A DNA stretch of 64,000 bases from Niameybacter massiliensis. Its GTDB lineage: Bacteria > Bacillota > Clostridia > Lachnospirales > Cellulosilyticaceae. Positions 32,098 through 55,831 of this stretch are shown piece after piece; position 1 is the first letter of the stretch; each line of letters opens with the position of its first letter. The notes under the pieces were generated by a model, which was not told the origin of the DNA, searched no databases, and saw only the letters and a list, made by a program, of their open reading frames with translations. Position numbers and translations under genes: made by a program. The stretch is from positions 385,001-449,000 of the forward strand of contig NZ_LN875035.1 of NCBI RefSeq assembly GCF_001282685.1, read 5' to 3'.

Positions 32098-32922
32098 TTG
32101 AGCATAATTTCTATAGCCATCGTTGGTGGAGATTTACGTTTTGTTAGACTTGCTAAAATACTCTGTGATAAAGGATTTGATACTTGGGTTTATGGTATCA
32201 CACATCCAGATTTGCCAAAGAATGTACATCTTGCAACTTCTCTCGAAGACATCAGCAAGTGTCAGTATATTGTTGGTCCAATTCCTTTTACAAGGGATGG
32301 GAAAAATCTTTTTACACCACTAAGTAACACAAGTATTTCTGTTGAAATGTTTATGGAAAACGTAAAAGATAGCTTTTTATGTTTATCCGTTTTGAAAAAA
32401 GATATTATTAAGCTTTTAGAAGAGCGCAACCTTAGATATAAAGACCTTCTTTCAATGGATGAAGTGGCTGTTCTTAATGCCATTCCAACAGCTGAAGGAG
32501 CTATACAATACGCTATGGAAAATAGTGAAATCACTTTAAATGATAGCAAATGCCTAGTTTTAGGATTTGGAAGATGCGGTAAGATTCTTGCACAAAAACT
32601 ACATGGTATTGGTGCACGTGTTTATGTTGAAGCCCGCAAGACCCTTGACCTAGCTTTTATTGCTTCTTATGACTACGTTCCTGTTCCACTTGATGAACTA
32701 AAAAAACATTTATGGAAATTTGATTTCATCTTTAATACCATTCCAGTACCTTTCTTAGATCCTTCTTATATTGATCTATTTAAAAAAGAAGCTGTTTACA
32801 TTGAACTTGCTTCTACTCCTGGTGGTATTGATATCCCATATTGTGAACAAACTGGCGTACACTACGTACCTGCTCCAAGCTTACCTGGAATTATAAAGGT
32901 ACATAATTTCTACAGTCACTGA
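32098..32922 (+). CDS. dpaA: Dipicolinate synthase subunit A, C-terminus lost at prophage junction
   Basis: TTG start behind AGGAGGAGATAC. A 274-residue protein (about 297 in Bacillus subtilis SpoVFA). N-terminal domain ISIAIVGGDLRFVRLAKIL, the block LNAIPTAEGAIQYAM, Rossmann fold CLVLGFGRCGKILAQKLHGI, and IFNTIPVPFLDPSYI. It works in the mother cell with DpaB to make spore dipicolinic acid. The family sequence ends at APSLPGI and is replaced by IKVHNFYSH and a stop. The conserved VAPKTAG helix (about 25-30 residues) and the dpaB gene are absent. Prophage genes follow, so the gene is probably split by the integrated element. Confidence 0.85.
   Translation: MSIISIAIVGGDLRFVRLAKILCDKGFDTWVYGITHPDLPKNVHLATSLEDISKCQYIVGPIPFTRDGKNLFTPLSNTSISVEMFMENVKDSFLCLSVLKKDIIKLLEERNLRYKDLLSMDEVAVLNAIPTAEGAIQYAMENSEITLNDSKCLVLGFGRCGKILAQKLHGIGARVYVEARKTLDLAFIASYDYVPVPLDELKKHLWKFDFIFNTIPVPFLDPSYIDLFKKEAVYIELASTPGGIDIPYCEQTGVHYVPAPSLPGIIKVHNFYSH
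32880..32912. other. Candidate left attachment site (attL) inside dpaA
   Basis: DpaA homology stops within CCTGGAATT (32885-32893). An interrupted dyad, GGAATTAT...ATAATTTC (32887-32910), surrounds the junction, as in many large serine recombinase sites. No second copy is in the window, so the exact core cannot be fixed. Confidence 0.5.
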
Positions 32923-32992
32923 ACATAAGCGTTGATTCACTCTATTGAATCTATCAGTACCTTGATTACTAGCTACCAGATATCGTAGAAAC

Positions 32993-33028
32993 AAAAAAAG
33001 ACCCTAAAAATTTTTTAAGGTCTTTTTT
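32993..33028. terminator. Terminator at the left prophage end
   Basis: AAAAAAAGACCCTAAAAA and TTTTTTAAGGTCTTTTTT form a bidirectional stem that ends the converging dpaA fragment and the 33031 gene. Confidence 0.8.
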
Positions 33029-33030
33029 AT

Positions 33031-34110
33031 TTAAGGCAGGCATACTTGGCAGGCTGTTAAGCCTTTTGCTTTGGCCTCTTTTACCGTACTTTCAATCTTA
33101 CTTTTTAATGTTTTACATGTGCCTTTATGATACTTTTTACCTGTTTTTGTAATATATACTACTGTACTATCAGCAGATGTTATTGGCTTTGTTACCACTG
33201 GTGTATTACTTATTGTAGTATTGGTAATAGTATCTATTTTAGTTACTGTAGATACTTGTGTAGCTTTCCCATCTACTTTTTGTGTTGATGTCGTAAGTGT
33301 TTTACCATCTGTAGTGATAACTATATTTCCATTCAAATCTGTTCTATATGTTTTAATAGATTTAAGCCTTTCTGATACATCTTTATGTGGATGGCCGTAT
33401 TTATTATCTTTTCCACAAGTAATTATAGCAACCTCTGGCTTAATCTTATCTAAAAATTCTTGGCTAGTAGAAGTATTACTACCATGATGACCTACTTTTA
33501 ACACATCAATATCTAGCATTTTTTCTAAGATAGATTTCTCCACATCTTTACCTGCATCACCTGTAAATAAAAACTCATGTTCACCATTTTTATAAAACAT
33601 CACTAGGCTTCTATCATTTACATCTTTTGCTTGGCTTTTTGTATTATAAAATTGGAATGTACCGTTTCCTAATGTAAATACTTTATCTTCTAATGGTACA
33701 CTTGGCTGTAGTTTTTTATCTATAGCTGCCTGAACAAAGTCTTTATAAGTCTTAGTATCTGCACTACCATTTCCAATTAATACTGTACCAATATCAAAGT
33801 TTTTAATTACGGCATCTAATGCACCACAGTGATCTGCATCTGGATGTGTAAGTACTATGTAGTCAAGTTTTTTAATTGCTTGAGCTTTTAAATACTCAAC
33901 CAAAGACTTCTCATCATCGTTCTCGGCACCATCAATAAGCATATTTTTACCATTATCTTTGATAAGAATAGCATCGCTATTACCAGTGTCAATGAAATGT
34001 ACTTCGACTGGTTTAATAGTAGTAGCTGGCTGCACACTTGCTCCAAATAACGTAGTAGTAACTAGTAATAAAGTCATAATAAATACTAAAACTCTGTTAT
34101 TGTTTTTCAT
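33031..34110 (-). CDS. Secreted metallo-beta-lactamase-fold hydrolase (ComEC C-terminal-like)
   Basis: A 359-residue exported protein. Signal peptide (1-24), then an MBL domain (about 35-265) with HFIDTGNSDAILI, the metal motif LTHPDADHCGA (His89, Asp91, Asp93, His94), LFTGDAG and VLKVGHHGSNTSTS. This pattern is that of the extracellular nuclease-like domain of ComEC/Rec2 competence proteins. A Thr/Val-rich linker leads to a C-terminal zinc-finger-like YHKGTCKTLKSKI...ACQVC module. Possibly an extracellular nuclease or phosphodiesterase. Carried at the prophage edge and probably not needed for the phage cycle. Confidence 0.8.
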   Translation of the reverse strand: MKNNNRVLVFIMTLLLVTTTLFGASVQPATTIKPVEVHFIDTGNSDAILIKDNGKNMLIDGAENDDEKSLVEYLKAQAIKKLDYIVLTHPDADHCGALDAVIKNFDIGTVLIGNGSADTKTYKDFVQAAIDKKLQPSVPLEDKVFTLGNGTFQFYNTKSQAKDVNDRSLVMFYKNGEHEFLFTGDAGKDVEKSILEKMLDIDVLKVGHHGSNTSTSQEFLDKIKPEVAIITCGKDNKYGHPHKDVSERLKSIKTYRTDLNGNIVITTDGKTLTTSTQKVDGKATQVSTVTKIDTITNTTISNTPVVTKPITSADSTVVYITKTGKKYHKGTCKTLKSKIESTVKEAKAKGLTACQVCLP

Positions 34111-34162
34111 ATCATCGCCCCTTCCTAGTTACTATAATATAGCAATTTCATTTGATGAACAA

Positions 34163-34258
34163 CTATATATTTAGGGCTATGGCTAATATAACAGTTATTA
34201 CAAGTACCGTTCCAAAGTAACTTGTTACTAAAACTCTTCTCAAATTAAATCTATCCAT
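34163..34258 (-). CDS. 31-residue hydrophobic peptide, possible toxin
   Basis: The frame encodes MDRFNLRRVLVTSYFGTVLV then ITVILAIALNI: a basic N-terminus and one membrane helix. The likely SD (AAGGAG) is unusually far from the ATG, about 13 bases, and is inside the 3' arm of a hairpin (34259-34303). Small single-helix peptides with a masked RBS are typical of type I toxins, but a phage lysis accessory or chance frame is also possible. Confidence 0.45.
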   Translation of the reverse strand: MDRFNLRRVLVTSYFGTVLVITVILAIALNI

Positions 34259-34303
34259 AAAAATAGACCACACTCCTTAGTTTTCTAGAGTATGGCCTAT
34301 TTT
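34259..34303 (-). terminator. Hairpin covering the peptide RBS
   Basis: Minus-strand RNA AUAGGCCAUACUC pairs completely with GAGUGUGGUCUAU using G-U pairs. The plus strand would have two mismatches. The stem is followed by UUUUUAUG, so it can act as a terminator and can hide the RBS of the 31-residue peptide. Confidence 0.6.
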
Positions 34304-34351
34304 TTATATATTTATACGGAAGATATTATCATTTATTATCATAACACTTTA

Positions 34352-34424
34352 TTTAAGTTTTTCTTAAACTGCACCCCTCCATATAATGACCGGAGGGGGC
34401 ATTATGATAGTAAATCATAATACC
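34352..34424 (-). ncRNA. Structured RNA segment, three stacked hairpins
   Basis: Three consecutive inverted repeats: ATTATGAT/ATCATAAT (34401-34421), CCCCTCC/GGAGGGG (34374-34398) and TTTAAG/CTTAAA (34353-34367). They directly follow the 16-codon frame at 34435-34485 on the minus strand and resemble the structured 3' part of type I toxin messages. Confidence 0.4.
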
Positions 34425-34434
34425 TTGCCTAAAA

Positions 34435-34485
34435 CTATCTTGTTAATACATAAATCATGACTAGGAGTGCTAATAAGTCTCTCAT
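34435..34485 (-). CDS. 16-residue hydrophobic peptide, candidate type I toxin
   Basis: MRDLLALLVMIYVLTR is encoded behind a strong RBS, GTGAGGTGG four bases before ATG. The layout GAGGTGG-ATG, short hydrophobic peptide, then heavily structured RNA is that of holin-like type I toxin genes in Firmicutes prophages. The peptide is shorter than the usual 30-40 residues, so it may be a decayed or minimal form. No antisense promoter could be verified. Confidence 0.45.
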   Translation of the reverse strand: MRDLLALLVMIYVLTR

Positions 34486-34579
34486 GTCGCCACCTCACTC
34501 TCACAGTAAAGTTGCTATATAGCACGTAGTAAGTATATCTATTGGTAAAACGTATGTCAACAGGTAAATTAATCCAATA

Positions 34580-34609
34580 AAAACAGGGTAAAGCCTAGGC
34601 TCTACCCTT
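34580..34609 (-). terminator. Terminator of the 34602 gene
   Basis: GGGTAGAGCC and GGCTTTACCC arms around TA on the minus strand, followed by TGTTTTTATT. The stem overlaps the gene's stop codon. Confidence 0.75.
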
Positions 34610-34778
34610 TATAATCTGTTGGTACCTCTTTGTACCCTTTTTCTAATATTTGTTTAAGGTTATGATCTAATAACTCTCTACTGTATCCACCATTGCAGCT
34701 CACATATCTACCAATCTCTAAAATTATGTTTTCTTTTATTTGATCTATATCTACTTCATATATCTTTTTCATATTCAT
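34602..34778 (-). CDS. Small hypothetical protein, 58 residues
   Basis: The frame begins at ATG 34778 after AAAAAGGGGGATGA and encodes MNMKKIYEVDIDQIKENIIL, a middle region with one Cys and GGYSRELLDHNLKQILEKGY, and ends EVPTDYKG. The composition is that of a soluble helical protein, with good codon use and its own terminator. It is too short for family assignment. The rest of the 760-bp stretch 34111-34869 holds the peptides and hairpins listed separately. Confidence 0.6.
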   Translation of the reverse strand: MNMKKIYEVDIDQIKENIILEIGRYVSCNGGYSRELLDHNLKQILEKGYKEVPTDYKG

Positions 34779-34838
34779 CCCCCTTTTTATTCATTATGCC
34801 ACTTATCAGAGATAAAATAAATCAAAAGAGTAGGCATC

Positions 34839-34860
34839 ATGCCTACCCTAAAATGATATT
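34839..34860 (-). terminator. Terminator of the HNH gene
   Basis: GGGTAGGCAT and ATGCCTACTC form a short stem on the minus strand, followed by TTTTGATTTATTTT. Confidence 0.6.
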
Positions 34861-34869
34861 TTTATTCTA

Positions 34870-35688
34870 TTAAAATGTATCTGAAACTTCTATAGTCCCT
34901 TTTTCTTCATCATAAACCACAAGTATATTTTTAGAATATTCGTCATATCTTAGGTCAAAATATGTCAAATTTATAAATCCTGTCTCCTTCTTACATTCTA
35001 TATATATTCCCTCACCAGGTTCTAAATGCATTTTCCCATTAACTACTTCGACCCACCCATCTTGTGTGTCATAGCTTTCTTCTAATAGGTCATCATCACT
35101 TTCCCATCTTATATTTAGTGCAGGTTCATTTCCTATATTTTTTATATAAATACTATACCCATCATAGTATTGCTCATTTAACATATGTACTATTTGTGGG
35201 TTTTTATTGCTATCTACAATTTTTTCTGACTCATGCTCGTGGCCTATTGACCTGTTGTTCTGAAAACTGCCTTCTATTTTCTTCACAATTATAAATGGAC
35301 CAACTGCTCTACTTTTATCATATTTTATTTGATATTTTAATGTATCTTTTTTATCATTCAAAGTATCTCTAACCCAATCTTCATGTTTTCTTTTCATTTC
35401 TTCAAGCTTTTGAATAGTATATGTATTGGGTTGATCATCTATTAATTTATGATGTATGCTGCACATTAATATTAAATTATTATATGTATTTCTTTGTTCT
35501 ACTGATAAATCTGATTCTCCTCTAGGTCCATTAGTTTCTCTTGCTACAATATGACACTCTTCGCCAATAATAGATTCATTATCTATTTTTGTCGCATCCA
35601 TTACCAGTTCATGTCGACATTCTGTGAAATTACATCTGTTCGCAGATTTACCCCATAGCATTTTTCTTGTTTTTATTGTTATAGACAT
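34870..35688 (-). CDS. HNH endonuclease-domain protein with beta-rich C-terminal domain
   Basis: A 272-residue cytoplasmic protein. The HNH domain (about 8-110) has zinc cysteines in RCNFTEC (Cys19, Cys24), GEECHIVARE with His46, and YNNLILMCSIHHKLIDD (Asn70/71, Cys76, His79/80). A beta-rich region (about 140-272) with LEPGEGIYIECKKETGF follows and looks like an Ig-like sensor or binding domain. As an accessory gene beyond the lysis module it is better explained as a defence or exclusion nuclease than as a packaging HNH. That role is inferred. Confidence 0.75.
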   Translation of the reverse strand: MSITIKTRKMLWGKSANRCNFTECRHELVMDATKIDNESIIGEECHIVARETNGPRGESDLSVEQRNTYNNLILMCSIHHKLIDDQPNTYTIQKLEEMKRKHEDWVRDTLNDKKDTLKYQIKYDKSRAVGPFIIVKKIEGSFQNNRSIGHEHESEKIVDSNKNPQIVHMLNEQYYDGYSIYIKNIGNEPALNIRWESDDDLLEESYDTQDGWVEVVNGKMHLEPGEGIYIECKKETGFINLTYFDLRYDEYSKNILVVYDEEKGTIEVSDTF

Positions 35689-35777
35689 CAGTTATCCCTC
35701 CATAATATAATAGAAAAATTATATCACAGTATATATTATTTTATTATATTTATTTTCTTTTATCATTACTTCTTGAT

Positions 35778-35825
35778 AAAATCATCATTTGAACAAAAAA
35801 ATAGAAGTAGAGCCAACGCTCTACC
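35778..35825 (-). terminator. Terminator copy 1 of a 48-bp duplication
   Basis: The stem GTAGAGC/GCTCTAC (35807-35824) is preceded on the plus strand by AAAAAAATAG and the segment AAATCATCATTTGAACAAAA. The same block with changes lies at 37181-37228. The rest of 35689-35947 shows no gene. Confidence 0.75.
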
Positions 35826-35947
35826 AATCAACTATTTGTTAATCCTGGTATATCATACAGAAGGGGCTATCTAGCCTGTTAGTATAATCGTTTTATTGCT
35901 AAGGAGTTGCATTACACCCATACACCATAACAAATTGGTTTTAGCAA

Positions 35948-37099
35948 CTACTTATCTCCACGCAGAGTAACAATTGTTGCGTCACTCAAATACATATAGT
36001 ATGTAAAGTTAGTATCTTCACATATTGCCATTGCCATTTCATATTGATAATCATGTCGCACAGTAGCATATTTTCGATATTGAAGCTCGTGCTCATCCTC
36101 TAGTTTAAACACTTCCGAATCCATAGGTTTCATTATTCCAATGATGCTCTGCGTTACTTTGTCTTTAAGCATGATTATAGGGTAGCCTGAGTTATAACAT
36201 TTAATGCGTTTGTCATCGGGGTTATCCATTCTATCATAGCAAAGCATCACATGGTATTCATCTTGGATACTTGTAGGGTCAACCTCTATGAAGTAGTAGT
36301 GGTTCTTAGGAGAACGGAATGCCCGAGCATCCTCCTTCGTTTCAAATACCATGTATGTGTTAGGATTGTAAATCCTATGAGTCACATACTTGCAGTCATT
36401 TGATAAGTAATATTCTTCAATAAACTCACGTGAATCTGAAAGCAATTGTTTACAAAAATCTAAACTTCTTTTTAAAACTTTCAAAGCATCTTCCTTTATA
36501 TGCGTACGGCTATCCTTGGTAAATGACGGTATAGAAACACTTCCCGTAGCTGAAAGAATGTCGAAGCGATTATCCACATAAATCTGATACCTATGTTTAA
36601 GTATGTTATTAAAATCTGCAATATAACCATATTGCGAATCAGATGGTAAACCTTTAAGTGTCTCTAAAAAGGTTCCTGTATATTCGGGACACGTGCCTAT
36701 CTTTTGTACTAGCTTGGATAATGTGACACCCTTAATCAACAGGGCATTTTCACCTAGTAAAGCCGAATTTAACCACTGTGCATAGGTATCAAAAAAGTTA
36801 TGCAATAACCCCAGTATCTCCATTGTTAGTTTGTCCATAAGGGAGGTAACGCGCATCTCTACACCTAAATAGTCAACAGTATTTGTATGTGCTGAATATT
36901 TCCCCACCCCAGTTTGTATAGCATCGGAGTATACCTTTGCAACCCTTTCAGCTTCATCTGTCTGGTAGTTCTCAACTATGTTTTGAAGTGCCTGTAAACT
37001 TGTCTCGGCAAAGTATAACTTGTAGTCACATGAGGTATAGAACTGGTATGAATCGGCTACCTTCTTATCTTTTAATAGTTTTAAAAGCGTATCTGACAT
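35948..37099 (-). CDS. Unknown 383-residue prophage accessory protein
   Basis: The start is the ATG at 37099, with GAGGGG seven bases before it; the longer TTG-initiated frame would contain that RBS. The first 225 residues are all helical, with VADSYQFYTSCDYKLYFAET and a later NNILKHRYQIYVDNRFDI segment. That segment recalls HEPN-type helical bundles but lacks a clear R-x4-6-H. The C-terminal half is beta-rich (YYFIEVDPTSIQDEYHVML, KYATVRHDYQYEMAM). No signal or membrane helix. It sits between duplicated terminators as a self-contained cassette. Function unknown. Confidence 0.65.
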   Translation of the reverse strand: MSDTLLKLLKDKKVADSYQFYTSCDYKLYFAETSLQALQNIVENYQTDEAERVAKVYSDAIQTGVGKYSAHTNTVDYLGVEMRVTSLMDKLTMEILGLLHNFFDTYAQWLNSALLGENALLIKGVTLSKLVQKIGTCPEYTGTFLETLKGLPSDSQYGYIADFNNILKHRYQIYVDNRFDILSATGSVSIPSFTKDSRTHIKEDALKVLKRSLDFCKQLLSDSREFIEEYYLSNDCKYVTHRIYNPNTYMVFETKEDARAFRSPKNHYYFIEVDPTSIQDEYHVMLCYDRMDNPDDKRIKCYNSGYPIIMLKDKVTQSIIGIMKPMDSEVFKLEDEHELQYRKYATVRHDYQYEMAMAICEDTNFTYYMYLSDATIVTLRGDK

Positions 37100-37180
37100 A
37101 TATTTTCCCCTCAAATTCTAATTTATCGATCTTACAAATATCTATTTTTCTTATTTTAACTTTATCATATTTTTATAATT

Positions 37181-37228
37181 AAATCAGTATTTGAACAAAA
37201 AAATAAAAGGTAGAGCCTAAGCCCTACC
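37181..37228 (-). terminator. Terminator copy 2 of a 48-bp duplication
   Basis: GGTAGGGCTTAGGCTCTACC on the minus strand folds into a stem with a U tract (TTTATTTTTTT). The flank AAATCAGTATTTGAACAAAA matches copy 1 at 35778-35825. It overlaps the last codon of the endolysin gene and terminates the late operon. Confidence 0.75.
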
Positions 37229-37919
37229 TACACCTACTCCCATATTTAATTAAGAGACTTCTTACATGACTTACATTGTATTTACCTGTGGTCCACAATG
37301 TTGCATCTGAAATAACGACCTCCTTGACAAGCTTATCTATTCCACCTAGCTTATTTAACAGTGCTGGTACATTTTTAAGATTGATTCTATCTAGCCTATT
37401 CCAACTTGCATCATTAATCTGTATTCCACTATCAATGATCTTCGTCACTGCTTTTTTCAGTTCTCCATCTTCTTTCATAACTGGCTCTTTCCAACCTTTA
37501 GGCACTTGAACATGTGGTGAGTCTCCAAAAGCTCCTCCCCATTCTAATCCTAAGTCAGATACAATCTTTCCACACTTATTAAAGAAAGCTTTATCACTAT
37601 ACTCTTGGCCTTTTACATTCTTACAGAAGTCAAAAGCCATACCATCTAAGTGATTACTATCCAAAGTCCATGTAACTTGCTTCTCTGATGGATTAGCATA
37701 TTTCTCAGCAAATGTTGCAGGTACCCCCATAGCTTTTGCCTGTGCTACTGTTCTACCTTGGCATGCTAAATAATATTGTCTTTCTTTAGTTCTTAATGTC
37801 TCTACTATGAGCACATTTAACTTTTGCCTCTCGCATTCTTCCATAAAAAGAGCACAAGCCTTTTGAGCCTGTGCTGATAATTTCTTTACATCCCTACATT
37901 GTTTTATTAAATCACTCAT
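37224..37919 (-). CDS. Endolysin, M15-family peptidase
   Basis: A 231-residue lysis enzyme that cuts peptidoglycan stem peptides. The zinc site of M15 (VanY / L-Ala-D-Glu peptidase) is visible: SNHLDGMAFDF with His90 and Asp97, and SPHVQVP with His136, plus the ETLRTKERQ strand. The C-terminal 75 residues (about 155-231) are probably a wall-binding domain. No signal peptide, so it depends on the holin encoded 2 bp upstream. Last gene of the late operon. Confidence 0.88.
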   Translation of the reverse strand: MSDLIKQCRDVKKLSAQAQKACALFMEECERQKLNVLIVETLRTKERQYYLACQGRTVAQAKAMGVPATFAEKYANPSEKQVTWTLDSNHLDGMAFDFCKNVKGQEYSDKAFFNKCGKIVSDLGLEWGGAFGDSPHVQVPKGWKEPVMKEDGELKKAVTKIIDSGIQINDASWNRLDRINLKNVPALLNKLGGIDKLVKEVVISDATLWTTGKYNVSHVRSLLIKYGSRCR

Positions 37920-37921
37920 TA

Positions 37922-38170
37922 TTACGCACCTACCTTATCTTGAATTTTATCTACTTTGCTTTCGATAGATTCTAACTTTACTGTGTATGTACCAATAATC
38001 TCTGCAAACTTCTCATTTGCTGCATTTGCCTTACCTAACTCTGTATAGAGTCTCTCTTTATCATTCAACTGGGCTTGATACATTTTCCATATAAATAAGC
38101 CACACGCTCCTACCATCGTAATAGGAAACCCCAAACTGCTTACTAATGTCTGAATTACATCTACATCCAT
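37922..38170 (-). CDS. Holin, BhlA/UviB family
   Basis: An 82-residue protein with one N-terminal membrane helix (about 8-28, LVSSLGFPITMVGACGLFIW). A charged coiled coil follows (30-82, ending IESKVDKIQDKVGA). This is the layout of BhlA/UviB holin-like proteins of Bacillus and Clostridium. It is placed just before the endolysin gene, which fits a role in membrane permeabilisation at lysis. Confidence 0.88.
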   Translation of the reverse strand: MDVDVIQTLVSSLGFPITMVGACGLFIWKMYQAQLNDKERLYTELGKANAANEKFAEIIGTYTVKLESIESKVDKIQDKVGA

Positions 38171-38189
38171 ATTTTTTCCTCCTACAGCA

Positions 38190-38228
38190 AAAAAAAGATG
38201 ATAACTATTAAGTTAATCATCTTTTTTA
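38190..38228. terminator. Terminator between the lysis genes and 38230
   Basis: AAAAAAGATGAT and ATCATCTTTTTT arms, with A and T runs at both sides. Confidence 0.75.
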
Positions 38229-38229
38229 C

Positions 38230-38688
38230 TTATTTTTGTCTCACTTCTAGAAAGCTTAAAAACTCCCTCTCTTTTATACTCTCTATCTCAATTCTATATA
38301 TAGTATCTCTTAGTATTTTGTTAATATAAATTATCATTTCACCTTCCTCTATACTCTTTCCGCACACCTGCACTTCTTCAGCATATATAGATAAATAAAT
38401 AGGTGTACGATGATTCTCCACTCTAATAATAATGTTCTCTCCATTACTCTGATATATTTTAATGCGTTCATTAGAATTGCAAGAAACATATATTTTCCTT
38501 AGAATATGCAATGAATTTTTAATATTTAATTGTTTAATCTCCAATTTATTAACTTGTTTAATCTCTATACTTCCTTCTTTAATAAAATCTCCTAAGTTAT
38601 TTATATAGTCAGAATCTCTAATTTTAAACTTCTTATAAAAATAACTCAAATATGCTATTACTTTTGTTACCATTACCTTAGTGCTCAT
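38230..38688 (-). CDS. Unknown prophage protein, 152 residues
   Basis: A soluble protein rich in Ile and Lys, with a helical N-terminus (VTKVIAYLSYFYKKFKIRDS) and a beta-rich remainder (IIIRVENHRTPIYLSIYAEE, then VQVCGKSIEEGEMIIYINK). It is followed by a terminator and preceded by a 174-bp gap, so it is a separate unit inserted between the tail-fibre genes and lysis genes. It is more AT-rich than its neighbours, which suits a late-acquired accessory gene. I do not recognise it. Confidence 0.6.
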   Translation of the reverse strand: MSTKVMVTKVIAYLSYFYKKFKIRDSDYINNLGDFIKEGSIEIKQVNKLEIKQLNIKNSLHILRKIYVSCNSNERIKIYQSNGENIIIRVENHRTPIYLSIYAEEVQVCGKSIEEGEMIIYINKILRDTIYRIEIESIKEREFLSFLEVRQK

Positions 38689-38862
38689 TAAATTTTTTTC
38701 CTTTTATCTCCTAAAATATTTTTCTAAAAATAATAGCATATTTTCTGTAGATTTATGTAGTTTTGTAGCTAATAATAACGTTTTTTGTAATGAATAACAA
38801 TTATTATAAACTACTGTCTATTCATTTTCCATTCTTATTCTCCATCCACTCAGCTCATTCTT

Positions 38863-39081
38863 TTATTCTATTAACCCAAGTTTCTTTTTGACTTCTTCTT
38901 GATACTTCTCTGGAATAACTTTTTTCCCTATTCCTTCTAACTGCCATTCATAATCAGCAATAAGGACTACACAGATTTCTGTTTGTTGTGCAGCTGGACA
39001 CTTTTCTACTTTCTTTCTTCCTGCATCTACTAATCTTGCATTTGCTCTTACTTGTACTGGATATTGTACTGTATCAATCAT
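38863..39081 (-). CDS. Small phage protein downstream of the tail fibre genes, 72 residues
   Basis: RBS AGGAGG before ATG. MIDTVQYPVQVRANARLVDA starts a short basic protein with two Cys (KKVEKCPAAQQTEICVVLIA) and an amphipathic C-terminal helix. Similar short genes sit between tail fibres and holins in clostridial phages, but no function is known to me. Confidence 0.6.
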   Translation of the reverse strand: MIDTVQYPVQVRANARLVDAGRKKVEKCPAAQQTEICVVLIADYEWQLEGIGKKVIPEKYQEEVKKKLGLIE

Positions 39082-39113
39082 TGTGATACCTCCTTTAAAT
39101 TATTTTATTTATC

Positions 39114-39521
39114 TCAGGCCTTTTGGCTTAATAATTGATTAAGTTTCTCATCTATAGAAGTTAATAGTTCCATAAGTAATAACGAATCGTTACCTGCAGT
39201 TGTTACCTTCCCATTTGTATCTAAACCCAGCTCCACGCTCATTAGGCTATCCTCTCCACTTTGTAGGCATAACCCATGAGTTCTTTCAATAATCTCTTTC
39301 TCCGTTAATGGCCTCTTACAGAGTTTCTCTAAGGTCACACCTTGTGATTCTTCGTGATATACCAATCTATACATATAGTCGTCTTGTGGGACTATAGGAA
39401 TAACTATATCATCAGGAACTCTAATACATCTTGGATCATCCATATACGCTTCAAGACTTTTTACCGAATTATCACTGTGTGACCATAATACTGTGTTCTC
39501 ATCACTTACATAAATAATCAT
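39114..39521 (-). CDS. Phage tail-fibre-associated protein, 135 residues
   Basis: The start ATGA overlaps the stop of the fibre gene at 39518, so translation is coupled. The N-terminal half has strands (MIIYVSDENTVLWSHSDNSV, IVPQDDYMYRLVYHEE). The C-terminus is a helical segment (LLLMELLTSIDEKLNQLLSQ) that could trimerise or act as a chaperone. Position suggests a fibre assembly factor or accessory distal protein. Unproven. Confidence 0.6.
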   Translation of the reverse strand: MIIYVSDENTVLWSHSDNSVKSLEAYMDDPRCIRVPDDIVIPIVPQDDYMYRLVYHEESQGVTLEKLCKRPLTEKEIIERTHGLCLQSGEDSLMSVELGLDTNGKVTTAGNDSLLLMELLTSIDEKLNQLLSQKA

Positions 39522-40390
39522 AGTACAACCTCCGTTCCTAAAATTTTAAGTGTAGCTGTTCCTACATACCATCCTGAGAAATATAAACATTGTCCCTCAT
39601 GTACATACATATCAAATATACAGTTTTTATTATTATTCACCGCTTTGTGACCAATCTCCATAACGGTTTTCATAGTCATGTACGTTGGTGAACCTATGTT
39701 ATGTATATTAGTATTTAAAAGAAGCCCTTCCCAACTTGTATAAGAGCTATTTATTCCATGACTAGATGATAGTGTAGCCTGTACATCTGGATTGGTGTAA
39801 ACAGTAATTCTTGAATTATCTGTACCATTTGTAGTTAGGAAACAAACTCTAATTACACCTGACCTTTTAGCAATAAATCTTCCCATGTAGCTCTGAGCAC
39901 CATTGCTAAAAGCATAAGCTGTACATAAGGTAGCTAACACATTGCTTGCATGTGGTTGATACACTTTTAGTCCACTTGTCTCTGCTGTAATATGATTTTT
40001 AATAACATCTCTAGCTGAATTTACTGCAGTAGTAATATTTGTCTGAGTTGTACTCATACTTTGATTAAGATTATCTAATTTAGCACCTCTAGCATCTGTC
40101 CAAACACTTTTTTGTGGCAGTCCATTAATGACATTTAAAATAGCTGTTTTAGCAGAATTAATCCATTCATTAATCAAAGTATTAAGCGGTTTAGAAGTAT
40201 CTGCATTAACTCTTTCGTTGACAACCCGTCTAACATCACCCGAAACATCTATACCCGTTATTTTCTGATCTATACTTTTAATTTTTTCTTCTGCACTCGT
40301 TCCATCATCCATAAATACAACGTCTGCAGATGTATGAGGATGAAGCACATCTCCATTATCAGCCTGAAGTTCTCCTTTTAATTTAGCCAT
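39518..40390 (-). CDS. Distal tail fibre / receptor-binding protein candidate
   Basis: A 290-residue protein. The N-terminus carries LHPHTSADVVFMDDGTSAEEKI, a short repeat shared with phage fibre proteins. A long helical region (about 40-140) suits a coiled-coil shaft. The C-terminal 140 residues are beta-rich (RVCFLTTNGTDNSRITVYTN, then GWYVGTATLKILG) and look like a globular tip. It is the last large fibre gene of the tail module and a good candidate for host recognition. Confidence 0.7.
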   Translation of the reverse strand: MAKLKGELQADNGDVLHPHTSADVVFMDDGTSAEEKIKSIDQKITGIDVSGDVRRVVNERVNADTSKPLNTLINEWINSAKTAILNVINGLPQKSVWTDARGAKLDNLNQSMSTTQTNITTAVNSARDVIKNHITAETSGLKVYQPHASNVLATLCTAYAFSNGAQSYMGRFIAKRSGVIRVCFLTTNGTDNSRITVYTNPDVQATLSSSHGINSSYTSWEGLLLNTNIHNIGSPTYMTMKTVMEIGHKAVNNNKNCIFDMYVHEGQCLYFSGWYVGTATLKILGTEVVL

Positions 40391-40400
40391 GTCATGCCTC

Positions 40401-40997
40401 CTATTCTATTACTTTAAAAAATAGTTTTCTTGGTACTGCATTGGATGTAGTTGTCCCAACTTTAATGCCATCACCTGGATCACCTTTAGGCCCCTGTGGT
40501 CCTGTTGCCCCCTTTGCACCTGCTGGCCCTTGCGGCCCCGTTGCTCCTGTTTCTCCCCTTGGACCTTGTGGCCCTGTGGCACCTGTCGCTCCTACTGGTC
40601 CCTGTGCTCCAGTTGTTCCTCTAAAGTTTCCTCTTTTAGTCCAAGTTGTAGATGCTGTTTTTTCAAATACATCTCCATTAGATGTGTTTAGTGCCCAATC
40701 TCCTACTACACCTAATGATGTATCTGGTGTCCCAGTAACATTATGCATTCTAGATCCTGCAACTCCAGCTGGACCCTGTGGGCCTGTGGCTCCTATAGGA
40801 CCTTGTGGACCAACTGCTCCCGTTGCACCTTTGGGCCCTGTTAATTTACCTCTATCTAGCTTTTGTTGAAAGGTTTCTCCATCTGAAAATGTAACAGCAT
40901 CTGCAGATGTTAATACATCCACTTCTTCGATAACTGCACTTGTATTTTCATCTAATAATTGTACTCTTACCTTTTTTAATGCTGACATATTGTTCAC
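40401..40997 (-). CDS. Collagen-like tail fibre protein
   Basis: A 198-residue protein. After a 50-residue N-terminal head ([20 protein letters not shown]), Gly-X-Y triplets rich in GPQ, GAT and GPA fill about residues 53-84. A small globular insert follows ([20 protein letters not shown]), then triplets resume (about 127-179). It should form a collagen-like triple-helical stalk. Such stalks are common in tail fibres of Firmicutes phages. The short C-terminal tail (KLFFKVIE) has no obvious adhesion domain, so it probably links to the next fibre. Confidence 0.88.
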
Positions 40998-41000
40998 TCC

Positions 41001-41681
41001 TTATTCTTTTATTTCAATCCCCATATTAGGGCTTACTTTTATAATGCCATTGCTACTTCCACCACTTTGTCTACTTGTAACTTTAAAATACATCTTCCCC
41101 TTTACTCTATCTTGAATAGGAATATCTGAACCTTCTGGTATAACATATGGACTAGATAAATTCTTGATTTGATTGATTAACTCAGGGTGTGCGACTGGAT
41201 TAATATTATGATTCTCAATGTCTTCTATAGTTGCATATACTAAACTTTGATTAATTGTGGCACTCACATTTATGGCATTTCCTATAATCGTTTCAATAGC
41301 CACAAACTTTTCTAATATTTGACTACCACCACTAGAGGGAATATATTCAGCTAATGCTCCTGCATTACCATAGCAATAGAGTATTTCTCCTAAGTCTGGA
41401 TCTGTTGCATAAAGCCCTAACTCTCTCCAATAAAACCCCGTGTCAATGTCCTGATTCGTAAAGGTACCACCTATACTTGCAATACCTCCAGTGAGTACTT
41501 TTATGTTTGATATAGGAATATCTAGTTTTTTACTTTTTAAATCTGTCAATTCTAAAATAGATTGACTCCCTAGTTCACCATCACCTATGGCAAGCTTAGT
41601 AAAGTTAAGTTTCGTACCAACTTGTGCCTTTGATTGCAGCACCTTTCCTCTTGTTGTAAAATCTACACTTCCAAAAGCCAT
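41001..41681 (-). CDS. Tail fibre protein, baseplate-proximal (gpH-like N-terminus)
   Basis: A 226-residue protein. The N-terminus MAFGSVDFTTRGKVLQSKAQ followed by LNFTKLAIGDGEL, then TGFYWRELGLYATDPDLGEI with a following LYCYGNAGALAEYIP, is the conserved attachment domain of P2-type tail fibre proteins (DUF3751-like). The C-terminal region ends in IIKVSPNMGIEIKE. It follows the gpI homologue by 1 bp, as in P2-type tails, and anchors the fibre to the baseplate. Confidence 0.85.
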   Translation of the reverse strand: MAFGSVDFTTRGKVLQSKAQVGTKLNFTKLAIGDGELGSQSILELTDLKSKKLDIPISNIKVLTGGIASIGGTFTNQDIDTGFYWRELGLYATDPDLGEILYCYGNAGALAEYIPSSGGSQILEKFVAIETIIGNAINVSATINQSLVYATIEDIENHNINPVAHPELINQIKNLSSPYVIPEGSDIPIQDRVKGKMYFKVTSRQSGGSSNGIIKVSPNMGIEIKE

Positions 41682-41682
41682 T

Positions 41683-42237
41683 TCATCCCTCCTGTCTAAT
41701 GATTATTTTGTCACCTGTATGTACTATAAACCCATAATAAAGATTTAGATTTGCACTCATCATCACTAATACTTCATGAAGTCGTGTACTTTTCCTTTTT
41801 ACTGCTTCTACTGCTTTATGAAATTGCTCTGCAAGTTCTCCTGTTACTTTCGTATTGGTTGTAAGTACTCTAAAATGATAAGGTTGTCCATCATACTCAT
41901 ACCATTCTTCTATTTGGCCATCTCCAAAATAGTCTGCTATAACTTGCTCTATAGCATAATTAGTACCAAGTGTTCTGAATACCTTATTGCAATTTCTAAT
42001 TATATTTCTCTTGATATCTGCATTCGCATTAGCATCATACCAAAATATATTTCTTTCTATTGCAATGGTATCTAATACTTCTTCTGGTAAGTCCTCTAGT
42101 TGTGTCCTTATTAAACTTCTACCGGTATCTATTTCATTTAATATCTCTGTTAGTACTAAACTCATTGCCTGTGTTGTCTTATCCTGCTTCATTGCTGATG
42201 TTTGCAATGTGAGTACATTAACATTACCTAGTTCCAT
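41683..42237 (-). CDS. Baseplate wedge protein, P2 gpI-like
   Basis: A 184-residue protein. The middle region ILNEIDTGRSLIRTQLEDLP, then DTIAIERNIFWYDANANADI and FRTLGTNYAIEQVIADYFGDG, is the phage tail protein I signature. The baseplate protein joins the J wedge to the fibres. RBS GGATGA, with the start 5 bp after the J stop. Confidence 0.85.
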   Translation of the reverse strand: MELGNVNVLTLQTSAMKQDKTTQAMSLVLTEILNEIDTGRSLIRTQLEDLPEEVLDTIAIERNIFWYDANANADIKRNIIRNCNKVFRTLGTNYAIEQVIADYFGDGQIEEWYEYDGQPYHFRVLTTNTKVTGELAEQFHKAVEAVKRKSTRLHEVLVMMSANLNLYYGFIVHTGDKIIIRQEG

Positions 42238-42241
42238 TAAA

Positions 42242-43354
42242 TCATCCTTTCAATCCTCCATAAATAATACTTTTAGTCGTCACTTTAGGAACTTGTGTCT
42301 CTTGAATTTCTGTATATATAGGTGATGTAATATCAACTTTATATGCTCCTGCATTTAAAATAAGTTGTTTTAGATAATCTGGATTAACTGATCTGCCTAT
42401 TTTAGAATCCTGCCACTTAATATATTCATTTACAGACTCAACAACCTTAGCCTTTATAATGTTTTCACTTGCTGCATTATCTAAAGCAATGTAATAAGTT
42501 AAAGAAATACTATATTCTGATACTGTAGGCGCTGCTACACTCACTTTATCAGTCATTGGTCTTGCCTTTTTGCTATTACAAGCATTCTTTATTCTTTCTA
42601 TAATAGCTTCTGATGGCAACTGGCCATTTTTCATTAGTGCTGTTATTAGTATTTCTCCTGGTCTAGGAGAAGTTACTATAACATCATCAATATCTGTATC
42701 TGCACTTTTAGCATGATAGATATAACCTAACTCATGTCCTGCTGTAGATATTTTAGCTGCTGCTAATCGAATTCTTTCTCTATAACCACTCCAAATATCT
42801 ACTCCATTATCATCCTCTTCCTCTTCTGATCCACCACTGCTAGTTGTAATATTTGATACGCTCCCAACAAAAGGAATCATATCAACCAATGTCTTTATCT
42901 GTCCTGGTGCAAACCCATTATGATTCACTCCTGCTACAGTTGCCACTACATCTACTTCTAATGATGCAGTATTCGCGCTAATAAACGTATCAGAAAGAGT
43001 TTCAAAGAATAACAACCCATCTGGTGTAACTCTAGTTCCTTTAGGAATATGAACTGTCTGCATTTGAGCACTAGATAATCTAAATTCTACTCTACACATT
43101 GCCTTTTGAGCTTGTAAGCGTTTTGTATCATATTCTATTCCTATAGCATCAAGAACTTGTCCTTTAGCATAGGTAAGTAAGTTTTGTTTAGCACTTTCAT
43201 TAATTGCATTATAGATACCAACTATAAGCTGTACTTCTTGCTCTAAAAAGATACGTCTTTCATCTCCTGGATAAAGTACTTCTCCTAATGCTTGTTGAAA
43301 CTGCACTAGTATTTCATTATATAATTGTTTTGCATCTACTTTTACAAAATTCAA
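42242..43354 (-). CDS. Baseplate J-like protein
   Basis: A 370-residue baseplate wedge subunit. TTG start within the overlap TTGA of the preceding stop. It has the family features: a helical N-terminus with YLVGIYNAINESAKQ-like region, QAKKAMCRVEFRLSSAQ-type strand (here QAQKAMCRVEFRLS), IPKGTRVTPDG, VDVVATVAGVNHNGFAPGQI, then YRERIRLAAAKISTAG. It forms the inner baseplate ring with the gp25 and I proteins. Confidence 0.92.
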   Translation of the reverse strand: MNFVKVDAKQLYNEILVQFQQALGEVLYPGDERRIFLEQEVQLIVGIYNAINESAKQNLLTYAKGQVLDAIGIEYDTKRLQAQKAMCRVEFRLSSAQMQTVHIPKGTRVTPDGLLFFETLSDTFISANTASLEVDVVATVAGVNHNGFAPGQIKTLVDMIPFVGSVSNITTSSGGSEEEEDDNGVDIWSGYRERIRLAAAKISTAGHELGYIYHAKSADTDIDDVIVTSPRPGEILITALMKNGQLPSEAIIERIKNACNSKKARPMTDKVSVAAPTVSEYSISLTYYIALDNAASENIIKAKVVESVNEYIKWQDSKIGRSVNPDYLKQLILNAGAYKVDITSPIYTEIQETQVPKVTTKSIIYGGLKG

Positions 43355-43665
43355 ATCTCAACCACCACCTTAAAAGCCATATGTCCCTCTTCATCAATAC
43401 TTATAAATTTAACACTCTTTATCACTACATCTTCTTCATATGTCTCAATCATTCGATATACTTCTGATATGTAAAGCGCAATAGCTTCATCTTTAGGTAA
43501 ATCTAATATTGATGGATCTAATCCTTTAGTCCTATCATAAGCTACCTCATATCTCCATGTATTGAGTAGTGTTCTTATATTTTGTAGTTTTCTCTCTACA
43601 CCCTTTGCATTCCAATTTAAATCATTTCTTTGTAATGTATCTATCTCATATAACAACTTTCTCAC
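43351..43665 (-). CDS. Baseplate wedge protein, gp25/W-like
   Basis: A 104-residue protein with the gp25 fold pattern: WNAKGVERKLQNIRTLLNTW, RYEVAYDRTKGLDPSILDLP and a final strand VKFISIDEEGHMAFKVVVEI. Lysozyme activity is not expected in this short family. The gene lies between U and J and overlaps the J start by 4 bp. Confidence 0.85.
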   Translation of the reverse strand: MRKLLYEIDTLQRNDLNWNAKGVERKLQNIRTLLNTWRYEVAYDRTKGLDPSILDLPKDEAIALYISEVYRMIETYEEDVVIKSVKFISIDEEGHMAFKVVVEI

Positions 43666-43668
43666 ACC

Positions 43669-44208
43669 CTATTTAATTCTATTTAAATCTGCTTTTTGAG
43701 ATGGACTAAGAACGTTATAAACAGACGTAGTATCTTTTTGCTTAGTACTCTTTGAGCTCTTTACAGCTTTTGTTTTTTTTGACCTCTTTGTACTTTCTTC
43801 TTTTTTACTACCAGCCTTAACAAATTCTTCAAATTTTAATGTTAGTGTAGCGCTAAATAAGTTACCAGCTGCATCAAAGTTTGTTTCATTTACGGAAACA
43901 TTTTTTAATATCCACTTTGTATTCATAAGTGGCTTTCCTTTTATCAAAAAGGGATATGCTTTAGCTTCATCTTTAACCTGCATCCATGATTCTATTTGTT
44001 CAAGAGGCTTAATGCCTAATTCTGCTTCTAGCCTAACCTTTATGCTAAAAGAATCAAGCCCAGCACCTTTGATATAGGTACTAGGCTTCTTATCCTTACT
44101 TTCTTGTGTTTCTGTATCTAATCCTGATTCAAGTCCAAACTCATCAAATGTAACTACCTTTTCACTACTTACTGTAAATCCCTTAGGGCCAAACATTGCT
44201 AAATACAT
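43669..44208 (-). CDS. Tail protein, P2 gpU-like, with basic C-terminal extension
   Basis: A 179-residue protein. MYLAMFGPKGFTVSSEKV at the N-terminus and AELGIKPLEQIESWMQVKDE then YPFLIKGKPL are typical of the GpU tail-tip family. After about residue 135 a Lys/Ser-rich extension (KKEESTKRSKKTKAVKSSK) follows, which is unusual. gpU is needed for tail completion and baseplate assembly. Confidence 0.82.
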   Translation of the reverse strand: MYLAMFGPKGFTVSSEKVVTFDEFGLESGLDTETQESKDKKPSTYIKGAGLDSFSIKVRLEAELGIKPLEQIESWMQVKDEAKAYPFLIKGKPLMNTKWILKNVSVNETNFDAAGNLFSATLTLKFEEFVKAGSKKEESTKRSKKTKAVKSSKSTKQKDTTSVYNVLSPSQKADLNRIK

Positions 44209-44209
44209 T

Positions 44210-44407
44210 CTAGCCCTCCTTTACCTTTGCACTTATTATTCCATCTGTAAATGTATTTCCATAAAATGATACTACTACTTTATCATTTGTTTTTAATGGG
44301 CCAACGTGCTCTGCAACATCTAATAGATTTGTTAAAAGTCCTTTTTCTCTTATAAATACTTTTGCCTTATCATCTTTGATAACCGATATTTCACCTTTTA
44401 AATTCAT
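44210..44407 (-). CDS. Short beta-strand protein, possible spike-base component
   Basis: A 65-residue protein of alternating strands (MNLKGEISVIKDDKAKVFIR, VVVSFYGNTFTDGIISAKVKE), fitting a small OB-type fold. It lies between the D and U homologues, where P2-type tails encode the gpV spike. It is far shorter than gpV, so it might supply only the OB part. No needle domain is seen in the window. Confidence 0.55.
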   Translation of the reverse strand: MNLKGEISVIKDDKAKVFIREKGLLTNLLDVAEHVGPLKTNDKVVVSFYGNTFTDGIISAKVKEG

Positions 44408-44410
44408 GAA

Positions 44411-45301
44411 TCACCATCCTGGAATCGTTCTTAACTTAAGTGAAGTCAAATTAGAACTTATGTTTTGAGTACATTGAAATACATAGTATTTATTATCTGC
44501 CAATCCAAATCCATTTAAATCCACCGTGCATCCTGCTGCAATACCAGGATTAAATTTGATATCAAACTCCATAATACTCTCGTACTTATTCACTGATCTT
44601 AGGCCATTCTTTGCAAATCTCTCTGATTCACCAATGCTATTTGTTTCAATATCTAAGTTTATTATAGGTCCTATTGTATCTTCACACAGATAAATATAAT
44701 CACCTATTCTCGCTCCACTATATGTTTTTGTTAACCCATCATAAAATCTAAATTCACCAATAACATCACTCATATGAATTTCAATAGGATGTTGAGCTTC
44801 CATAAATTTTTCATCATATACCACTAATGAGTTATTAGTAATCTTCATCACATAACCTTCAATCATGCATCTTTTACTTATGAATACAAAATCAGACTCC
44901 TCAACTTGTGTTAACCTATGGTATCTATAATTATTTATGTTATAAGTTTTAAGCTTTAGTGCATTTTTATTAGCAAATTCATTTAGTAGCTCCATTAAAG
45001 TGACGTTCTCCCATGACTTTGTGTGCTTTTCTTTAGCCTTAGTCTTAACAGGCAAACAAATCATCTTAATACATCCACTTAATTGTTGCATACCATTGAT
45101 ATACATTTGTCCAGATGAGAAACCTTCATGCTTAATTAGCACCATCTGGTTCTTTTCAGGCTTCCATGAACTCCACTGATTCTCATGATTATTAAATATT
45201 ATTTCAACTGAATCAAACTTTTCACCTGATAAGTCATGTATTTTACATGTTTGAATATCTACTTCCGATGCTATGTCTTTTCCTTCATATATAAGTTGCA
45301 T
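44411..45301 (-). CDS. Tail hub protein, P2 gpD-like
   Basis: The start is the ATG at 45301, because GAGGTGA lies six bases upstream; it overlaps the LysM gene's stop. A 296-residue hub protein: MQLIYEGKDIASEVDIQTCK, ENVTLMELLNEFANKNALKL, a SDVIGEFRFYDGLTK region and a C-terminal GIAAGCTVDLNGFGLADN. This is the gp27-like hub that forms the inner baseplate ring and binds the tape measure. Confidence 0.82.
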   Translation of the reverse strand: MQLIYEGKDIASEVDIQTCKIHDLSGEKFDSVEIIFNNHENQWSSWKPEKNQMVLIKHEGFSSGQMYINGMQQLSGCIKMICLPVKTKAKEKHTKSWENVTLMELLNEFANKNALKLKTYNINNYRYHRLTQVEESDFVFISKRCMIEGYVMKITNNSLVVYDEKFMEAQHPIEIHMSDVIGEFRFYDGLTKTYSGARIGDYIYLCEDTIGPIINLDIETNSIGESERFAKNGLRSVNKYESIMEFDIKFNPGIAAGCTVDLNGFGLADNKYYVFQCTQNISSNLTSLKLRTIPGW

Positions 45302-45305
45302 ATTT

Positions 45306-45515
45306 TCACCTCTTCCAAGGAGGGAGTGTTTCTGGAATATCCTCTTCAACAACTGGAACCTTAAGTACTACTCCCGCTTTAAAAGTGATTATCTTAGCGT
45401 ATGAAGGGTTAGCTTGAATAATTAGATGTGATTTAAATTCATCATTGTACATATCCAAAGCAATAATATCAAAAGTATCACCATCAACTGTAGTGTACTC
45501 AATATAATTATCCAA
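45306..45515 (-). CDS. LysM-type tail protein, P2 gpX-like
   Basis: A 69-residue single-domain protein. EYTTVDGDTFDIIALDMYND followed by LIIQANPSYAKIITFKAG is a LysM-like fold typical of gpX. It overlaps the tape measure gene by 8 bp and is translated in concert with it. Tail assembly role, between tape measure and hub. Confidence 0.88.
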   Translation of the reverse strand: MDNYIEYTTVDGDTFDIIALDMYNDEFKSHLIIQANPSYAKIITFKAGVVLKVPVVEEDIPETLPPWKR

Positions 45516-47367: not shown

Positions 47368-47548
47368 TCTCTCCCTCCTTCCTCATAGCTTGTGATTCCT
47401 CTACTAGATATCTATAAAACTCAACAAAATCTATAAGAGTCATATTGTAGCAATGTTCTGCAGAAGTAGATGTATTAAGCGTTACCCTAGCTATTTGCCT
47501 ATGAAGAATCTCATCTCCAATTATTCCTCCAAATTCACGTAGAAAAAA
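47357..47548 (-). CDS. E' extension of the tail assembly chaperone, reached by -1 frameshift
   Basis: From the slippery TTTTTTC the -1 frame stays open for 64 codons, reading REFGGIIGDEILHRQIARVT and ending AMRKEGESGK. It has no start of its own and stops at 47357-47359, overlapping the tape measure GTG, as E' does in P2-like phages. The joint product E-E' spans 47856 to 47357. Confidence 0.75.
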   Translation of the reverse strand, partial: FFLREFGGIIGDEILHRQIARVTLNTSTSAEHCYNMTLIDFVEFYRYLVEESQAMRKEGESGK

Positions 47549-47856
47549 CTCCTTGCCAGCTTAGCGCCTTTTTGAATATCCTTTGCACTTAATCTAAATA
47601 CATCTGACATATCCATCTCTGGATTTGCTTTTACAACAGCACCTGCAAATAAGTACATGTGATAATCTGTATCTAGTTCTTCAACAGATATCGGGATACC
47701 ATCTGATTTAATACGTTTACCTACATTTAACTTGTCTCTAGCAGTCATACTTTCAAAGTCGTAAATTAACTCTTTTACTTCTTTCCCATCAATAAAGATT
47801 GGTTTCGTAAGTGTTAACACGTTTGTTTTTAATGCTTCTACCATTTTTTCATTCAT
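47521..47856 (-). CDS. Tail assembly chaperone E-like
   Basis: The start is the ATG at 47856, seven bases after AGGAGG; the frame itself opens further up. A 111-residue protein with VLTLTKPIFIDGKEVKELIY and FESMTARDKLNVGKRIKSDG, fitting the gpE family that coats the tape measure during tail assembly. The gene lies between the tube and tape measure genes. Confidence 0.82.
   Translation of the reverse strand: MNEKMVEALKTNVLTLTKPIFIDGKEVKELIYDFESMTARDKLNVGKRIKSDGIPISVEELDTDYHMYLFAGAVVKANPEMDMSDVFRLSAKDIQKGAKLARSFFYVNLEE
47542..47548 (-). promoter_or_regulatory. -1 ribosomal frameshift site TTTTTTC
   Basis: T-TTT-TTC in the E frame is a canonical X-XXY-YYZ heptamer, near the end of the E frame. 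Shifting back one base opens the E' frame. Confidence 0.75.
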
Positions 47857-47889
47857 CTCATTTCCTCCTAAAATAAATTGAGCCACTCA

Positions 47890-49847: not shown

Positions 49848-49861
49848 TACATCACCCTTTC

Positions 49862-51052: not shown

Positions 51053-51365
51053 CTACTAGGTTTTGATTTAGAATCACTTCATAGACTCCGTTATCTTCTC
51101 TTAACGAAAATACATACATTTGCTTTTCATCAAAAATAACTGGTCCATCTTGCTTAAGTTTTGCACTTAACCTTGATTTTGGCACAAAAAATAACAGCTC
51201 ACCAACATATAAGCCGTCATACTCTTTTTTAGATCTCTCTTCAAGTCTATCATTATCTACTACAATACTTATTTTCTGTCCGTTAATAATGTGCTCTTCT
51301 GTAAATTCATCTATATTGAAAAATGTTTGTTCTAAATCTTTATTTATTTGTTCTTTGAATCCCAT
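51045..51365 (-). CDS. Head-tail connector / head closure protein
   Basis: A 106-residue protein with IDEFTEEHIINGQKISIVVD, YDGLYVGELLFFVPKSRL and VFSLREDNGVYEVILNQ. Position (after the capsid gene, before gpZ) and beta-barrel composition fit the FII/gp16-like stopper proteins. No family motif is decisive. Confidence 0.65.
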   Translation of the reverse strand: MGFKEQINKDLEQTFFNIDEFTEEHIINGQKISIVVDNDRLEERSKKEYDGLYVGELLFFVPKSRLSAKLKQDGPVIFDEKQMYVFSLREDNGVYEVILNQNLVGG

Positions 51366-51379
51366 TTAATTTCACCCTC

Positions 51380-52423: not shown

Positions 52424-52438
52424 TAGTTATTTCCTCCC

Positions 52439-55807: not shown

Positions 55808-55831
55808 AAATACCTCCATAAAAATAAGACC

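Follow-up and report, generated by a model that had tools for sequence, protein, structure and literature searches.

Dipicolinic acid (DPA) is the compound that hardens spores, and dpaA and dpaB encode the two subunits of the synthase that makes it. In the genome of Niameybacter massiliensis (G000), the 64,000-nucleotide stretch analyzed here (the window, positions 385001-449000 of contig C11) contains a dpaA gene that breaks off at the border of phage-type DNA, which raises the question of whether the gene is lost or merely interrupted by an element whose excision could restore it. A sequence-only reading had proposed the latter, namely that a prophage splits dpaA and that its excision would rebuild the gene and its operon.

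The product of the dpaA 5' part matches the NCBIfam models DpsA (2.4e-75) and spore_dpaA (1.5e-55), in both cases under the curated cut-offs, and its likeness to the family holds up to the residues PSLPGI, after which, as had been described from the sequence, it continues with IKVHNFYSH and stops. The missing C-terminal region lies outside the window, where the tail KVAPMTAAAILYQGLTLIMREQGEQI is encoded at C11:465480-465575, behind the large serine recombinase (LSR) gene of a prophage that we call element 1. The ends of this element share an 18-bp core, CTCCAAG[C/G]TTACCTGGAA, identical at 17 of 18 positions, and joining the flanks at the cores yields an in-frame DpaA of 290 aa, as in intact relatives (n = 11, 285-290 aa, with 290 aa in eight; in three of the 11 the start codon was set a few codons upstream of the match). 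The proposal would have been refuted by a full-length dpaA elsewhere in the genome, or by homologues without an insert ending at the same place: no such gene was found in G000 with either the truncated or the joined protein as query, and none of the 11 intact relatives stops at the G000 break point. Extension to the right, suggested as a check, recovered the dpaA 3' end and dpaB beside a serine recombinase gene, and the proposed split of dpaA, with restoration of gene and operon by excision, is thereby supported. The statement that no dpaB follows is correct within the window only; dpaB begins at the end of dpaA, its start overlapping the dpaA stop (ATGA), and is itself split. The features of the locus are collected in Table 1; the terminator-like inverted repeat just inside element 1 could end transcription of the interrupted dpaA.

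Table 1. Features of the interrupted dpaA locus and its two prophages (window coordinates unless a contig or locus is named)
Feature	Position	Strand	Remarks
SigK-like promoter of dpaA	32033..32060	+	AC-N17-CATAGGTTA
dpaA 5' part	32098..32922	+	about 263-264 native codons, then 10 element codons and stop
attL core of element 1	32873..32890		CTCCAAGCTTACCTGGAA; partner CTCCAAGGTTACCTGGAA at G000:C11:465481
Left 31.1 kb of element 1	32891..64000		whole element 47,608 bp core to core
Terminator-like inverted repeat	32990..33030		just inside element 1; read from sequence, no scan
Metallo-beta-lactamase-fold protein gene	33031..34110	-	PF00753, 5.5e-20; left end of element 1
Endolysin	37224..37919	-	PHROG
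Baseplate wedge subunit	42242..43354	-	PHROG
Tail tape measure protein	45508..47367	-	PHROG
Tail sheath	48402..49847	-	PHROG
Major head protein	51380..52423	-	PHROG
Portal protein	53863..55446	-	PHROG
Terminase large subunit	55832..57688	-	PHROG
Candidate directionality ORF, element 1	start C11:461789	-	54 aa; motif site upstream
LSR1 gene (element 1)	L005 14985-16445		outside window
LSR2 gene (element 2)	L009 1174-2796		

At about codon 115, dpaB is cut by a second prophage with its own LSR (element 2). The dpaB model matches in two places, C11:465596-466006 for the front of the gene and 511816-512067 for its back, and the core GCAAA occurs at 465917 and 511831, 45,914 bp apart; its join gives an in-frame DpaB of 195 aa that reads VVLAAKSLMRNG like intact relatives. 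A first core, CATG (201-aa join), was rejected because it leaves extra residues absent from intact relatives, and the GCAAA join scores better by 10.5-11.4 bits against each of the eight canonical intact copies from the family that both searches list. Between the two prophages remain some 430 bp of host DNA. One further dpaB-model match in G000 is weak (26 bits, within a 409-aa frame) and probably represents another flavoprotein. On the sequence evidence, both genes are demonstrably split, and joining at the cores would restore both.

The G000 genome is a draft of 11 contigs, and two prophages might in principle have been misjoined into the dpa operon during assembly. This is hardly credible, given that all dpa pieces lie in the expected order on a single 3.39-Mb contig, that the same two LSRs occur together in one 91,927-bp IMG/VR record (2775506840_000002), probably derived from the same genome, and that the same design is found in other genomes (see below). 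In this record (L108, L116) the two neighbouring prophages apparently figure as a single virus that includes the host dpa pieces.

A PHROG scan of ten proteins per element, with the portal protein scanned in element 1 only, identified in both a terminase, major head protein, tail sheath, tape measure, baseplate, endolysin, a replication-type gene and a repressor, the structural genes of element 1 lying at 37-58 kb of the window. Both elements look like complete contractile-tail prophages (element 1 is myovirus-like), from which the production of infectious particles can at most be inferred. LSR1 and LSR2 each contain the resolvase, recombinase and zinc-ribbon domains (PF00239, PF07508 and PF13408), all over the Pfam cut-offs, and in both elements the LSR gene stands directly before attR. 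The attP dyad matches at 16 of 22 half-pairs in element 1, a value reached by 17 of 3000 random windows, and at 20 of 22 in element 2 (3 of 3000); among four elements of relatives, one reaches 18 of 22 (6 of 3000) and the other three, at 12 of 22, are ordinary. The exact attP sequences were not found in IMG/VR, and the flanks of seven other LSR1 relatives in that database gave no credible dpaA or dpaB match (best E 0.003; one of these contigs stops right behind the LSR). A Terrisporobacter phage with a 38.9% identical LSR was also noted. A metallo-beta-lactamase-fold gene is present near the left end of both prophages (window 33031-34110; L005 17580-18621), the copy of element 2 being broken into two frames. 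A third G000 LSR (L102 9911-11827, C11 about 2166000) belongs to another prophage region and, with no tie to sporulation established, was set aside.

The arrangement is not confined to G000. Across the 24 genomes of the family, with a DpaA match in 18 (records named Epulopiscium and Cellulosilyticum included) and a DpaB match in 22, dpaA and/or dpaB are cut, or end as a stub entering foreign DNA, in eight, of which five are seen directly (G000, G016, G018, G020 and G022) and three are inferred from stubs (G003, G007 and G017). What looked like splits in G010 and G006 proved to be overlaps between contigs and is not counted. Three insertion sites are occupied in the two genes, either by phages or by 4.7-kb elements combining agr genes and an LSR. 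In place of the G000 site at about codon 263, an insert of 46.9 kb in G018 and one of 23.6 kb in G022 cut dpaA near codon 130, with 5' stubs entering foreign DNA near the same codon in G007 and G017; dpaB is cut near codon 115 in G000, in G018 and G020 (4.7 kb each) and in G016 (pieces on two contigs), and 3' stubs of dpaB remain in G003, behind an LSR, and in G007. Both genes are interrupted in G000 and G018, and possibly in G007. sigK is split as well, in G018 by about 67 kb (C6:859532-927508, ends L104 and L105) and in G015 by about 30 kb (C70:3650-33901, L106 and L107), in both cases with an LSR just before the 3' piece, so that G018 has sigK, dpaA and dpaB all interrupted; in G006 and G019 the sigK pieces lie on separate contigs. 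An order-wide DpaB search matched 187 of 393 genomes, with only the strongest among the matches listed, and splits outside the family may therefore have been missed.

The 4.7-kb dpaB elements (L089 8867-13467 in G020; about 810310-815050 of C6 in G018) contain genes for a GHKL kinase, an AgrD-like peptide, AgrB, a small protein and an LSR, and no phage genes were seen in them, so that a quorum-sensing cassette lies within a DPA synthase gene; Pfam was run on the G020 element, and the AgrD-like peptide was named by eye.

Among the relatives the recombinases group by target site. Those of the dpaB site are 40-55% identical to each other and those of the dpaA codon-130 site 42-57%, compared with 34-42% between the groups; in a FastTree phylogeny the dpaA-130 LSRs form one clade (0.994) and, once the two other G000 LSRs serve as outgroup, so do the dpaB LSRs (0.842). 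Identity between the LSRs of the two sigK elements and the dpa-site LSRs is 34-45%. LSR1, from the prophage in the window, is distant (24-27% identity) and the others are related, so that the same operon has been targeted by one LSR lineage and by at least one LSR distant from it.

Insertions of this kind could also be tolerated in dead genes, if DPA or spores were no longer needed. Such decay might be suspected from the six of 24 genomes without a DpaA match, from Epulopiscium type B, which, in the part of the report available, has spoVFB without spoVFA (PMC3416734), and from the dpaA stub of G017, broken by a frame-breaking duplication that is either an argument against function there or an assembly error. 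In G000, however, the split genes bear no other damage and joining restores their exact lengths, SigK and SpoVAD score over the cut-offs with sigK intact, and the SigK-like promoter of dpaA is kept. The branches of the joined genes, moreover, are not longer than those of intact sisters: the two parts of the joined G018 DpaA share 93 and 92% identity with the intact DpaA of G019, with branch lengths of 0.045 and 0.035 (DpaB, 0.058 and 0.059), and the G000 branches (0.20 and 0.21) fall inside the range of intact genes. These lengths fit genes in use, but a recent insertion as well. We regard decay as very improbable. In G009, G011 and G012 a full-length DpaB-like protein (51-53% identical) is found without a DpaA match, as in the account of Epulopiscium type B.

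The SigK-like pattern AC-N15..17-CATANNNT[AG] occurs within 200 nt upstream of dpaA in all 16 genomes scanned (of the 18 with a DpaA match, G010 and G021 were left out), compared with 2.85% of 4000 random 200-bp windows. No SigK- or SigE-like site was found within 300 nt upstream of eight LSR genes. Just upstream of dpaA (window 29979-31790), three consecutive genes encode small secreted-type proteins of 157-158 aa that look like a tandem family.

Candidates can also be named for a recombination directionality factor (RDF), a small protein by which an LSR is brought to recombine attL and attR and which is hard to find by homology. The dpaB-site elements of G000, G018, G020 and G007 share a conserved protein of about 65 aa (no copy was found in G003, where the contig offers no more than 4.5 kb upstream), and a second small protein is conserved in the dpaA-130 elements of G018, G007 and G022, the G017 element offering too little sequence for comparison. 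Merging the two families was rejected, the profile comparison being weak (28.6% probability), and none of the candidates belongs to a Pfam or PHROG family at E 0.001 or better. In phage-type elements with readable neighbours, the small genes adjoin a repressor-like gene.

Upstream of the small genes a composite motif, [AT][AT][AG]GGACA[AG]-N10-15-CATA, was defined after inspection and then counted. It has eight sites in 480,872 bases, where 20 Markov sequences averaged 2.2 and never exceeded 6, and overall is only moderately enriched. Five of the eight sites are followed, at a distance of 45-56 nt, by an ORF of 54-68 aa with a ribosome-binding-like site, and these ORFs are four of the homology-defined candidates and one new ORF in element 1; after the sixth site comes a broken 19-codon copy in G007, and the two in G016 have no ORF of at least 20 aa after them. 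The strict motif stands before four of the seven homology-defined candidates; by eye, two more come close to it, and the last has no match. Sequence that played no part in the motif definition (82,000 bases) contains a single site, which precedes a 60-aa ORF running divergently from the LSR of the G018 sigK element; the motif was absent from the G015 sigK element and from the third G000 prophage region. Taken by itself, the 8-mer TAGGACAA shows no enrichment (18 occurrences, 18.4 expected), and a stricter composite pattern gives two sites where 0.6 are expected. The first part of the motif resembles the SpoIIID box of Bacillus subtilis, whose consensus is WWRRRACAR; it tells against a SpoIIID reading that the composite arrangement was not seen in the sigK upstream regions inspected in the family. 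The small genes are thus candidate excision factors, for which function and mother-cell control are inferred from conservation, position and motif only.

The same observations leave room for ordinary temperate phages that use conserved attB sites in dpaA and dpaB and leave at random or on induction, with few DPA-containing spores and no developmental role. Complete-looking prophages with repressor genes are what such phages would be, a small gene beside a repressor-like gene is the expected position of a phage excision gene, no sporulation-type promoter was seen before the LSRs, and part of the composite motif could be a phage repressor operator. Against this explanation, integration falls time and again in SigK-type mother-cell genes (two sites in dpaA, one in dpaB, and sigK), the 4.7-kb G020 element has kept the small gene and the motif with no phage repressor gene seen, and the known elements of this type are excised in sporulation, to the extent that the accessible parts of the literature describe them. 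We consider this explanation unlikely, if still to be reckoned with.

We hold it probable instead that dpaA and dpaB, each split by an LSR-integrated prophage, are rejoined by regulated excision in the mother cell, for which neither an observed excision nor expression data are available. Each prophage would have entered the coding sequence through its own LSR, and recombination at the cores would take out 47.6 kb with element 1 and 45.9 kb with element 2, restoring both frames and placing the rejoined, overlapping dpaAB operon behind the SigK-like promoter. Most likely, a small directionality factor made in the mother cell would switch the recombinases to excision during sporulation, as has been described for skin, vfbin and SPbeta. 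The mother cell, which dies in any case, would then make DPA only once both independent excisions had occurred, and both prophages would presumably be retained in the spore. This developmental reading is favoured because of the LSRs before attR, the shared cores, the attP dyads, the SigK-like promoter and the presence of sigK and spoVAD, as well as the same design in relatives, the conserved small genes with their motif and the model systems; promoter and candidate RDFs lend it indirect support only. It is weakened by the lack of a SigK- or SigE-like site before the LSRs, the post hoc motif, the ordinary attP dyads in three relatives, the broken frame of the G017 stub, branch lengths that a recent insertion would also explain, and the lack of an exact attP in IMG/VR.

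Interrupted sporulation genes have been described for sigK, spsM, spoVFB, spoVR, gerE and yabG (PMC5595907; PMC10747680; PMC5025042; PMC4191935), and the following comparisons extend only to those portions of the papers that were accessible. A close case is vfbin, which interrupts spoVFB in Bacillus weihenstephanensis KBAB4 and is described as excised in sporulation (PMC4191935); like element 2 it lies inside the gene for the second DPA synthase subunit, whereas in G000 dpaA is also cut, by a separate prophage, and the phage gene sets are complete-looking. The skin elements of Clostridioides difficile and B. subtilis likewise split a mother-cell gene in an LSR-mediated manner, the target being sigK rather than dpaA or dpaB, and the C. 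difficile RDF, CD1234, has 72 aa, similar in size to our candidates, and is controlled by SigE and SpoIIID (PMC5025042). In B. subtilis the complete prophage SPbeta lies in spsM, which is rebuilt on its excision (PMC4191935); G000 differs in having two complete-looking prophages in two neighbouring genes of one enzyme. The gin element in gerE of Bacillus cereus ATCC10987 (PMC5595907) is, like the 4.7-kb dpaB elements, an intervening element without phage genes, but measures 28.6 kb and has three recombinases, in contrast to the single LSR that the 4.7-kb elements combine with AgrB, an AgrD-like peptide, a GHKL kinase and a small gene. Finally, yin, a prophage-like insert in yabG of Clostridium botulinum, is reported to be excised in a fraction of the population whatever the time point tested (PMC10747680); it shares with the G000 elements a SigK-controlled target gene, an LSR and a predicted small RDF, and differs in its target.

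Because spoVFB is dpaB, the principle and one of the targets were already known. The remark that no dpaA case had been described still stands, none having been found in the open-licence PMC literature, where we likewise found no case of both subunits of one sporulation enzyme being cut at once. As far as these searches show, the new elements are dpaA (spoVFA) as a target, the joint interruption of both subunits and the recurrence within a family. Should DPA production require both excisions, it depends on the departure of two different phages from the chromosome of one and the same cell, and the eight interrupted genomes of 24 make the family a natural experiment on why mother-cell genes attract mobile elements. 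At 4.7 kb, the agr element would be very small for an intervening element and could connect quorum sensing with spore maturation.

More tentatively, and as a possibility that we would not yet assert, DPA synthesis may stand behind two independent excisions as behind a DNA AND gate, with sigK, dpaA and dpaB as the standing home of one serine recombinase lineage whose partners are under a shared SpoIIID-type promoter; repeated insertion of phages and 4.7-kb agr elements would then tie spore hardening to the state of the phage and, in some species, perhaps to cell density. A double helix-turn-helix gene (L005 16934-17380) starts right where the dpaB 5' piece ends and has the same orientation; loss of element 1 could bring it under the dpaA promoter, in which case the two excisions would be ordered.
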